Source of the DNA: Halorientalis sp.
GTDB taxonomy: Archaea > Halobacteriota > Halobacteria > Halobacteriales > Haloarculaceae
Length of the DNA stretch: 64,000 nucleotides
NCBI RefSeq assembly: GCF_028275115.1
Contig: NZ_JAQCNH010000039.1
Span: forward strand, 33,628-97,627
Direction: 5' to 3'
The translations under genes were made by a program, and so were the position numbers. The notes below the pieces were generated by a model, which was not told the origin of the DNA, did not search any database, and saw only the letters and a list, made by a program, of their open reading frames with translations. Positions 36,691 to 42,214 of the stretch are shown one piece after another; position 1 is the stretch's first letter, and each line of letters begins with the position of its first letter.

Positions 36691-36757
36691 AGATACAACA
36701 ATTGAGAATCGGGAGCGGATTTTTATAAGATGGCGTAACCCAGCTACGGTAGTGCCG

Positions 36758-37657
36758 ATGTATCGAAACGACCGTCCCGCGGCGCTCTGTGTGACCAACG
36801 CCAAGGGCGGGACGGGGAAAACAACGGTGGCGATCAACGTCGCGGGCGCGTTGAACGAGCGCGGACGGGACGTGCTGTTCGTCGACCTCGACCCACAGGG
36901 TAACGCCACGGAGGGGTTAGGCCTCGTCGAGGCGTACGACGCGGCACCGCCCACGCTGTTCGACGTCCTGACCGACCCCGAGCAGCGGTCGGCCGTTCAC
37001 GACCTGATCGTCCCACACGACGAGATGGACGTGTTGCCCAGTAACATCGACATGCTCCAGGCCGAGCACGAACTGACGCTGGCGAACGTGATGGCCACAC
37101 TTGATGCCGACCCGTCGCTTGGTGTTGACCCTGCGGTGCTGGAACCGTTGACGATCAACGTCGGGCCGGAGACGTTCAGCGGGGAAACGGCGCTAGACGG
37201 GCTGGAGAAAGTGCTGGCGGAACTCTCGGGGTACGATTACGTCGTCGTCGACTCGCCACCGTTCTACGGCCAGTTGACCGACACCGCCATCTACGCGACG
37301 GGCAACGTGTTGATTCCCGCGCTGACCGAGGCAACGTCGGAGCGGGCCATCGAACTCCTGTTCGACCAGATCGCGGCCCTCGAGGACCGCACCGGCGAGA
37401 GTGTGCGTGAAGTCGGCGTCGTCGCCAATCGGGTCGAGTCGACGAACGAGGACGCAGAGATGCTGGACTGGCTGGAGGCAGTGTTCGAGGACGTGCCCGT
37501 CTGGTCGATCCGCAAACGGGTCGCGCTCCAGCGAGCCTTCTCCAGTGGCCAGTCACTGTTCACTCACGACCCCGCGGTGGACATGGCCGACCGGTTCCTG
37601 GAGATCGCCGCCGACCTCGACAGACAGTACGGCTTCGCCGAGGAGATACCACAATGA
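36758..37657 (+). CDS. ParA/MinD/Soj-family P-loop ATPase
   Basis: Deviant Walker A 'TNAKGGTGKTTVAINVAGAL', 'FVDLDPQGNATEGLG', 'YDYVVVDSPPFYGQLTDTAI'. TATA-like 'ttttataag' near 36720 supports the 36758 start. Confidence 0.9.
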   Translation: MYRNDRPAALCVTNAKGGTGKTTVAINVAGALNERGRDVLFVDLDPQGNATEGLGLVEAYDAAPPTLFDVLTDPEQRSAVHDLIVPHDEMDVLPSNIDMLQAEHELTLANVMATLDADPSLGVDPAVLEPLTINVGPETFSGETALDGLEKVLAELSGYDYVVVDSPPFYGQLTDTAIYATGNVLIPALTEATSERAIELLFDQIAALEDRTGESVREVGVVANRVESTNEDAEMLDWLEAVFEDVPVWSIRKRVALQRAFSSGQSLFTHDPAVDMADRFLEIAADLDRQYGFAEEIPQ

Positions 37658-38868
37658 CCGACGAGGACACTAACAACCGGATGGAACGGGCGAATCGCAT
37701 TCGAGAGATGCGCGAAGGACGACGCCGCACACCCGCGGACGGCGACGACGCTGAGACGTCCGACGCGACTACGGACGGCGGCGAGGCTGAAGCCGAGCGG
37801 GCCGACGCGTCCGACGCGGTCACGGATGCCGGGAGCACAGCCGAGTCGGAAACCGCCAACGGCGACACCGTAGCCGACGGGACGGCGGACGGGAGCGGAC
37901 GGACGGCCGGTTCGACGGCAACCATCGACGAGACGGTCGACCCACCCGGGGACTCGTCGGCGGCCGACGACGACCCGGAGCCGTTCGAATCCACGGCGGA
38001 CGGGTCCGCTGGCGTCGCGGAGTCCGAGGAGACGACCGACGCCTCGACTGCCGGTGCTGACGGTCGCGGCCAGTTCGCCAGTACCGACGACGAACACGCC
38101 GTCGAAACAAGCGGGTTCGAGTTCGAGGACACGGGCACCGACGACTCCGCTGACCAGCGTAACGGAGCGAGCGAGGGCGGCGACGACCGCGAGACGGCAT
38201 CGGCAAACGCGGCGACCGAGACGGGCGGACAGTCGTCACCGCAGTCGGGTGTCACGGAGTCGGTGTCTTCGGCGGGCGCGGCCGAGGCCGTCGACGCGCT
38301 TTCGGGGACCGAAACGTTCGCCATCCCCGATCAGGCGACGACAGTCTCGGAGGACGACGAGCAGTCGATGCTGAACGCGGAGGGGACCGTCGCTGCGGCA
38401 CGAGCGGCCGCGGCCGGCCGGCGCACGGCTCACGGAGCCGACCAGACGCGCGTTCTCGAGTTCGATCTGGGTGACGAGCGATTCTGCCTCGACATCGAGT
38501 ACATCGAGGAGATCGTCGAACTGGAGAACATGACGCGGGTTCCCAACTCGCCGTCCCACGTCGAAGGAGTGGTCGACCTGCGTGGACAGGTGACGGCCAT
38601 TATCAACCCCAAGGACACGCTCGCCGTCGACGACGACGGTCGCGGCGAACTCATCGTCGTTTTCGACTCCGAGGAGATGGACGAGCAGGGTCACCTTGGT
38701 TGGGTCGTCGACGAGGTACGCCAGGTCACGCCCGTCACAGACGAGGATGTCAACGAGTCACCCGACGAGAACGACGAACACATCAACGGCGTCATCAACC
38801 GCGAGGACGAGGACGACTTCATCGTCTGGACGACCCCCGACCTCGCGTCGAACTCCTCGTCGTCCTAA
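37654..38868 (+). CDS. CheW-domain protein with basic N-terminal peptide and long acidic linker
   Basis: C-terminal 'VLEFDLGDERFCLDIEYIEEIVELENMTRVPNSPSHVEGVVDLRGQVTAIINPKDTL' is a CheW fold. 4-bp overlap with the ParA gene. Confidence 0.9.
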   Translation: MTDEDTNNRMERANRIREMREGRRRTPADGDDAETSDATTDGGEAEAERADASDAVTDAGSTAESETANGDTVADGTADGSGRTAGSTATIDETVDPPGDSSAADDDPEPFESTADGSAGVAESEETTDASTAGADGRGQFASTDDEHAVETSGFEFEDTGTDDSADQRNGASEGGDDRETASANAATETGGQSSPQSGVTESVSSAGAAEAVDALSGTETFAIPDQATTVSEDDEQSMLNAEGTVAAARAAAAGRRTAHGADQTRVLEFDLGDERFCLDIEYIEEIVELENMTRVPNSPSHVEGVVDLRGQVTAIINPKDTLAVDDDGRGELIVVFDSEEMDEQGHLGWVVDEVRQVTPVTDEDVNESPDENDEHINGVINREDEDDFIVWTTPDLASNSSSS

Positions 38869-41235: not shown

Positions 41236-41289
41236 GCGCTCGGGGCGACGACTCGGTCCTACAGCCGCACCGGCACATCACGCTCGTCC
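41236..41289. repeat. 54-bp direct repeat, copy 1 (detached duplicate of the hisF 3' end)
   Basis: Matches 41376-41429 except for one base (actcGgtcct vs actcGatcct, read by eye). Confidence 0.9.
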
Positions 41290-41375
41290 GAATCCACCTT
41301 TTTTCCGCTCGGGTGACCGGCGGTCACCGCTCCCGGCAAAAACGTGGGCGAAAAAACCGAGCGCTCGTCTCACTC

Positions 41376-41429
41376 GCGCTCGGGGCGACGACTCGATCCT
41401 ACAGCCGCACCGGCACATCACGCTCGTCC
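41376..41429. repeat. 54-bp direct repeat, copy 2 (contains the genuine hisF 3' end)
   Basis: Encodes the HisF C-terminus DERDVPVRL* on the minus strand. 140-bp offset from copy 1. Confidence 0.9.
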
Positions 41430-42214
41430 AGATGGCCCTTCGTCTCCGCGATTGAGTACTCACCGAAGTGGAAGATAGAGGCCGCGAGTCCGGCGTCGGC
41501 ACCCGCTTCGGTGAACACCTCGTGCATATCTTCGGGACCACCACAGCCCGAGGAGGCGATCACCGGCGTCGAGACGGTGTCACAGACCGCTCTCGTCAGC
41601 GGGATGTCGTAGCCATCTTTGGTCCCGTCGGCGTCGATGGAGTTGACGAACAGTTCACCCGCGCCACGTTCCTCGGCCTCCTCTGCCCACGAGAGCACGT
41701 CGATATCGGTTCCCTCGCGGCCGCCCTTGACGGTGCACTCGAACCAGCAGGATTCACCGTCGACCTCCACGTAGTGATCGCCCTGCTCGTCGAACCGGCG
41801 GCGGGCGTCGACGCTGATGACGATACACTGACTGCCGAAGGCCGCCGCGCCCTCCTCGATGAGTTCCGGGCGCTGTAGTGCGCCGGTGTTGACCGAGACC
41901 TTGTCCGCGCCCGCTCGCAGGGTCTCCTTTATGTCCTCGCGGGTGCGGATGCCACCACCGACGGTGAGCGGGATAAACACCTCGTCGGCGATGGACTCGA
42001 CGACGTGGAGCATCGTCTCCCGCCCCTCCGCGGAGGCAGTGATGTCGAGGAACACGAACTCGTCGGCGCCAGCCTCGTTGTACTTTTTCGCCATCTCGAC
42101 CGGGTCGCCGGTGTACTTCAGGTCCTCGAAGTTGACGCCGGTGTACACGGCGGCGTTGCCCTCGTCGTCTATGTCCACGTCGATGCACGGGATAATCCGC
42201 TTCGTGAGGGTCAT
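41399..42214 (-). CDS. hisF: Imidazole glycerol phosphate synthase cyclase subunit
   Basis: '[61 protein letters not shown]', '[13 protein letters not shown]'. Confidence 0.95.

Follow-up and report, generated by a model that had tools for sequence, protein, structure and literature searches.

The stretch of DNA analysed (the window) comprises 64,000 nucleotides, positions 33628-97627 of contig NZ_JAQCNH010000039.1, of a Halorientalis draft genome of 150 contigs (family Haloarculaceae). On its plus strand lie two overlapping genes, one encoding a ParA-type ATPase and the other a protein with a C-terminal CheW domain, called the adaptor below. The features of the locus are:

36722..36729, plus strand: TATA-like element TTTATAAG, ~28 bp upstream of the parA ATG; putative promoter element.
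36758..37657, plus strand: parA, encoding a ParA-type deviant Walker A ATPase of 299 aa with NAKGGTGKTT.
37085..37198, plus strand: ParA insert of ~35-40 residues (about 110-147), seen as a gap between two aligned blocks; type I alignment.
37511..37534, plus strand: RKRVALQR, ParA residues 252-259; candidate nucleoid-DNA-contact segment.
37654..37657, plus strand: ATGA, 4 bp shared by the parA stop and the start of the CheW gene; putative translational coupling.
37654..38868, plus strand: gene for the CheW-domain adaptor, 404 aa.
37678..37725, plus strand: basic N-terminal peptide of the adaptor, residues 9-24 RMERANRIREMREGRR; proposed ParA-binding and ATPase-activating element, from its conservation and predicted helix.
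37741..38442, plus strand: acidic low-complexity linker, about residues 30-263; 14% identity, disordered in the model.
38449..38838, plus strand: CheW domain, about residues 266-395; Pfam CheW, aligned to Thermotoga maritima CheW (3ur1/1k0s).

The parA reading frame is open from 36662, with an ATG start at 36758. The element TTTATAAG is the sole exact match within the window, where 0.04 would be expected from shuffled sequences, and it is the probable promoter of a two-gene parA-CheW operon; its position before the ATG supports both the start at 36758 and the two-gene arrangement. An earlier sequence-only reading of this DNA had described a 4-bp overlap between the ParA stop and the CheW start, and this was confirmed. 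A chance overlap or a mis-called start is ruled out by the 39 conserved pairs described below together with the TATA-like box. The same reading had confined the CheW fold to roughly the last 140 residues and placed an acidic, low-complexity linker of ~230 aa before it. Both statements hold: Pfam finds CheW at residues 267-387 of 404 and no other domain, and the linker measures ~235 aa with 25% D/E and 56% S/T/A/G. The Arg-rich N-terminus is confirmed as well: the sequence is as quoted and the core R9-R24 is basic, although the first 30 residues are near neutral overall because of flanking D/E. In this genome cheA and cheW1 are located on a different contig, and the pair is not adjacent to che genes. 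Elsewhere in the window, a 65-nt direct repeat (91%) occupies 41236-41300 and 41376-41440, 140 bp apart; one copy extends into the 3' terminus of the minus-strand gene hisF, a pattern resembling duplication of the end of that gene.

The ParA protein has Pfam matches of the AAA_31/CbiA type only. KGGTGKTT, K16, K21, D43/D45 and D165 are invariant in 26 aligned ParAs, which identifies a deviant Walker A ATPase. Identity to relatives ranges from 61 to 93% (mean pairwise 69% within type I, the group of the window's pair), and among named Halorientalis records the closest are H. regularis (93%) and H. pallida (92%). The insert has no counterpart in the Soj/ParA structures, in most plasmid ParAs or, for the most part, in type II ParAs. 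The segment RKRVALQR is invariant in the 26 ParAs and largely retained in type II; from its position relative to Soj, it is a candidate DNA-contacting segment. An archaeal MinD identity is ruled out, since the minD_arch profile scored 61 bits against a family cut-off of 201.75. Because the closest solved structures by sequence are Soj/ParA and McdA, and the MinD score falls so far below the cut-off, the nucleoid is the likeliest matrix, and the protein may bind nucleoid DNA in an ATP-dependent manner.

The sequence-only reading had suggested examining the first ~30 residues of the adaptor for conservation. R9, R12, A13, R15, R20 and G22 proved invariant in 25 aligned adaptors, and in the alignment the distant type III proteins have them too. 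Within type I, mean pairwise identity was 77% in the 16-residue core, 63% in the CheW domain and 14% in the linker; the net charge of the core is +3 to +7 in relatives. Invariant peptide residues are encoded by several synonymous codons, indicating that the constraint acts on the protein; conservation of the segment as DNA or RNA is thereby ruled out. AlphaFold2 predicts a helix at residues 4-20 (pLDDT 72-85). In bacteria, ParA is activated by short basic peptides at the N-termini of partners that have nothing else in common (PMC7993993; PMC12462528), and the conservation and layout of the adaptor peptide fit the pattern of these ATPase-activating partners (AAPs). We propose that residues 9-24 bind ParA and stimulate its ATPase. 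Type III proteins (G247, G286, L126, L113) carry the motif two or three times; the loci for such CheW-type adaptors with tandem basic peptides are L078, L079, L126 and L113, the last truncated at a contig end.

The linker is modelled as disordered, with pLDDT mostly <50. Given its lack of sequence conservation and a length of anywhere between 64 and 269 aa in type I, it is probably just a spacer, a flexible tether. The CheW domain (PF01584) scored 73.6 bits against a cut-off of 23.5, and this part was poorly modelled by AlphaFold2 with a shallow alignment. In T. maritima CheW, the receptor-groove residues are L14, V27, I30 and V33 (PMC5706961); they align with L268, I281, I284 and I287 of the adaptor, which are kept, as is the LRG arginine R310, as invariants in the adaptor alignment. 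The adaptor's CheW domain may dock into arrays of receptors, CheA and CheW.

The distribution of the pair was surveyed in 148 genomes of the family Haloarculaceae, with CheA scored by PF02895. A ParA orthologue was present in 84, and in 83 of these a CheW gene lies directly downstream on the same strand, so that the pairing foreseen by the sequence-only reading is upheld; in the sole exception (G004), a contig break puts the two genes on separate contigs. CheA was found in 82 of the 84, and the remaining two genomes are only 58% and 71% complete. Two genomes are without both the pair and CheA: G077, of the same genus and 99% complete, and G062, which is 89% complete. The association of pair and CheA gives a Fisher's p of 3e-23, which overstates the evidence because the genomes share kinship. 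CheA without the pair occurs in 15 family genomes. Since at least 12 chemotactic family genomes (genera g6, g15, g16 and g21) are without the pair, and Haloferax uses MinD2/MinD4, arrays do not generally require the pair. CheA-positive genomes without the pair, namely G117, G122, G123, G125, G134 and G136 (genus g15), G047, G050 and G145, are natural controls for array positioning there.

At the locus level, the pair was present in 39 of 40 loci read with this ParA. The 39 pairs show a 4-bp ATGA overlap (n=33), an 8-bp overlap (n=4) or a 10-bp gap (n=2). Flanking genes differ between genera while the pair persists, and CysS is a neighbour only in Halorientalis. An ordinary extra CheW gene that happens to lie beside an unrelated parA is ruled out, since the pair is kept although the flanking genes change. 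A search of the open-access literature found no paper describing a ParA-CheW pair.

Similar gene pairs occur on haloarchaeal plasmids. In 20 of 20 plasmid-type loci, whose ParAs are roughly 43-60% identical, a partner gene lies directly 3' of parA, and nearly all overlap it, mostly by -4 or -8; on the named plasmids PHS4, pNG300 and pNMAG03, the overlapping partner is annotated 'hypothetical protein'. These partners have a basic N-terminus joined to a low-complexity linker, and most of them end in a ~75-aa C-terminal domain with the pattern TYMYLP...EKNRHFFPLVV..GL (also TYMYLP...EKNRH...HGL). The CheW adaptor is without this TYMYLP domain and has CheW in its place. The motif RA.R[ILV][RKGS]..R (in shorter form RAxR[IL]R), a pattern written after viewing the CheW and plasmid groups, was present within the first 60 aa of all 47 CheW partners (40/40 type I/III, 7/7 type II), 21 of 33 plasmid partners and none of 503 other ORFs. 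With a matrix built from type I alone, 20 of the 33 plasmid partners scored above the 99th percentile of the background. The C-terminal plasmid domain gave no Pfam match and nothing in Foldseek and PDB sequence searches; AlphaFold2 placed two confident helices after 'TYMYLP', and a ribbon-helix-helix fold was considered. With no Pfam or fold match, 'centromere-binding' is a putative designation for this domain drawn from gene position.

One locus combines the two arrangements. L071, on a 58-kb contig of genome G337, encodes a ParA that is 65% identical to the window's and carries the insert; its partner starts MSDEGESESDDRMGRADRIRNTREGRR and continues into a non-CheW domain. Its peptide RMGRADRIRNTREGRR scored 36.5 bits, against 2.8 for the best background ORF. 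L071 is a natural cargo swap. The region (L071:4697-6885) is plasmid-like, with a chemosensory-type ParA, the peptide and the non-CheW domain followed by a ParB-like gene. The pair and the plasmid partners are natural domain swaps from which the exchange of cargo in ParA systems can be read, and they provide a handle on the partition proteins of haloarchaeal plasmids, which are uncharacterised. In a further ParA family of haloarchaea (~35% identical), parA is likewise overlapped (-8) by a partner gene, whose product has a distinct conserved N-terminus, MPxxNRFAGL, and a C-terminal domain of the pattern YVRxETLDxLDDAEFEVE...RREHDVRDLTGREFHDA. This uncharacterised ParA/adaptor class is represented by loci L146-L156, L158, L161, L163, L164, L166 and L169 (Haloferax, Halolamina, Natronolimnohabitans and others).

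Further ParA-CheW families were found outside the type I/III group. Type II, in Natrialbaceae (Natrialba, Natronorubrum, Halobiforma, Natrarchaeobius), consists of an insert-less ParA followed by a CheW protein of 339-415 aa that begins MTDDRARRIREMRNR or similar; a search of 117 genomes found it in about 28 at E <1e-66. This pair lies in the che cluster between cheB/cheA and cheW1; cheA-cheB and parA-cheW(II) diverge, and after the pair there is usually a soluble protoglobin-type receptor and/or cheW1. The pair with its peptide was present in 18 of 20 regions drawn from this search, the remaining two (L239 and L240) being weak matches chosen deliberately, and 17 of the 18 have cheA/cheB inside the fetched stretch. 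L239 led to type IV, which a family-level search then placed in G410-G413 and G510: ParA4 is followed by a CheW protein and then cheB, and archaellum genes adjoin in G412. The type IV adaptor has a different conserved N-terminus, DPDD.FEDQLSDVG.R.REK......KKAEKLGVSP; its loci are L239:4986-7037 and L250-L253. The ATGA overlap recurs in the majority of pairs of type II, of type IV and of the plasmid kind.

In the unrooted ParA tree, types I and III form one group with L071 (97/89), and type II forms another (100/100) among plasmid ParAs. A single clade of the CheW-coupled ParAs of types I/III and II was rejected (p-AU 0.00016; 0.0078 without L071), indicating that CheW coupling either had two or more origins or was repeatedly lost. 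The CheW-domain tree does not discriminate between one origin and two (p-AU 0.38). Type IV ParA sits on a long branch, and neither its joining with type II (p-AU 0.28) nor with types I/III (0.16) was rejected. The exchange of the cargo domain for CheW probably happened more than once. We lean towards the view that haloarchaea repeatedly turned plasmid-partition modules into array positioners by placing CheW behind a ParA-binding peptide (types I/III and II, possibly IV), with the peptide serving as an exchangeable cargo tag; as the tree is unrooted, the direction from plasmid to chemosensory system is one that we infer.

These results suggest, with a probability of about 0.75, that the pair is a chemosensory-array positioning module derived from a plasmid-partition module in which CheW took the place of the cargo domain. 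ParA-ATP dimers would bind the nucleoid non-specifically, while the partner's CheW domain would dock into arrays of receptors, CheA and CheW. The Arg-rich N-terminal helix, carried on the long disordered tether, would bind the ParA dimer and stimulate its ATPase, and repeated capture and release could move the array over the nucleoid, or share it along the nucleoid, as ParA/ParB do with plasmids. The module may have originated as a haloarchaeal plasmid-partition pair in which the putative centromere-binding domain was replaced by CheW. Array positioning is supported by the peptide of the plasmid partners, the che-cluster pair of Natrialbaceae, the third family beside cheB and the linkage to CheA. 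It is also the simplest account of a Soj/ParA-like ParA combined with a kept CheW groove, given the bacterial precedents of basic peptides and of ParP and TlpT.

Other roles were considered. The CheW protein might be mainly a signalling regulator that competes with CheW1 for receptors, as has been proposed for CheW2 of Halobacterium, its availability being tuned by ParA. CheW2 of Halobacterium salinarum binds receptors, cytosolic ones among them, but not CheA (PMC3579733), and type I CheW sits apart from CheW1 in the CheW-domain tree. Such a role is nevertheless unlikely, because it leaves unexplained both the conserved ParA-type peptide common to plasmid partners and the fact that in three families the gene is strictly coupled to that of a partition-type ParA. 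The same peptide bears on a reading in which it is a nucleic-acid- or membrane-binding tail instead of a ParA ligand. It is Arg-rich, and the basic tail of FrzCD binds the nucleoid directly (PMC5716589); however, the motif is a specific pattern beyond charge, with A13 and G22 among its six invariant positions, and it is found behind parA genes irrespective of the C-terminal domain attached to it. In type IV, where ParA forms a long branch by itself, the partner has a different conserved N-terminus of its own. We therefore regard a simple binding tail as improbable.

Least probable of all is that the pair still partitions DNA, with cargo and anchor reversed, so that the CheW domain anchors ParA on a chromosome or plasmid to the array. 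The partition-like ParA clade and the non-CheW partner of L071 on a plasmid-like contig would suit this arrangement, but the pair is absent where CheA is absent, Pfam finds no DNA-binding domain in the adaptor, and type II lies inside the che cluster. Since the CheW partner carries the same Arg-rich tail as the plasmid adaptors, the pair probably places chemosensory clusters and not plasmids.

For the placing and sharing out of arrays in archaea, MinD2/MinD4 matter in Haloferax, and among the papers found, none names a protein linking an ATPase to the array in archaea. In genera such as Haloarcula and Natrialba, the pair gives both an ATPase and an adaptor by name, along with a peptide of 16 residues.

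Among known systems, ParP and TlpT each tie a ParA-like ATPase to an array (PMC5706961), and the pair would be an archaeal analogue of ParC/ParP and PpfA/TlpT, while by sequence it groups with the plasmid partition pairs of haloarchaea. Vibrio ParC/ParP resembles the pair in joining a ParA-like ATPase to a partner with an N-terminal ATPase-interaction part, a long linker and a C-terminal CheW-like array domain (AIF) (PMC5706961). The AIF domain of ParP is reported to be nearer CheA-P5 than CheW (PMC5706961), whereas the adaptor domain falls with CheW, split from the CheW domains of CheA by a 100/100 branch in a tree from which ParP AIF itself is absent. As to the chemotaxis-operon location expected of ParC/ParP genes, the type I pair is outside the che cluster and the Natrialbaceae type II pair inside; here, in contrast to Vibrio, the peptide and the kin of the ParA point to plasmid partition. 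PpfA/TlpT of Rhodobacter sphaeroides is similar in its ParA-like, nucleoid-based placing of chemoreceptor clusters and in a partner acting through a basic N-terminus (PMC5706961, PMC7993993). It differs in that TlpT is a receptor and the system proteobacterial, whereas the partner here has a CheW domain only, with a soluble receptor added in some Natrialbaceae operons. Haloferax volcanii places its arrays with MinD2/MinD4, ParA/MinD ATPases that likewise affect array placement in a haloarchaeon (PMC11588486); these are of the MinD subfamily, with no CheW-domain partner described. In the AAPs PomX, ParB, ParG and McdB, activation of the cognate ParA by a short basic N-terminal peptide has been demonstrated or suggested, while the remainder sets the cargo (PMC7993993, PMC12462528); these proteins are bacterial, and the likeness drawn here is one of layout and charge. 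The haloarchaeal plasmid parA pairs of PHS4, pNG300 and pNMAG03 differ in having the ~75-aa C-terminal domain instead of CheW and, in most cases, a ParA without the insert, but they share with the chemosensory pair the gene overlap, the N-terminal motif, the linker layout in many members and a related ParA.
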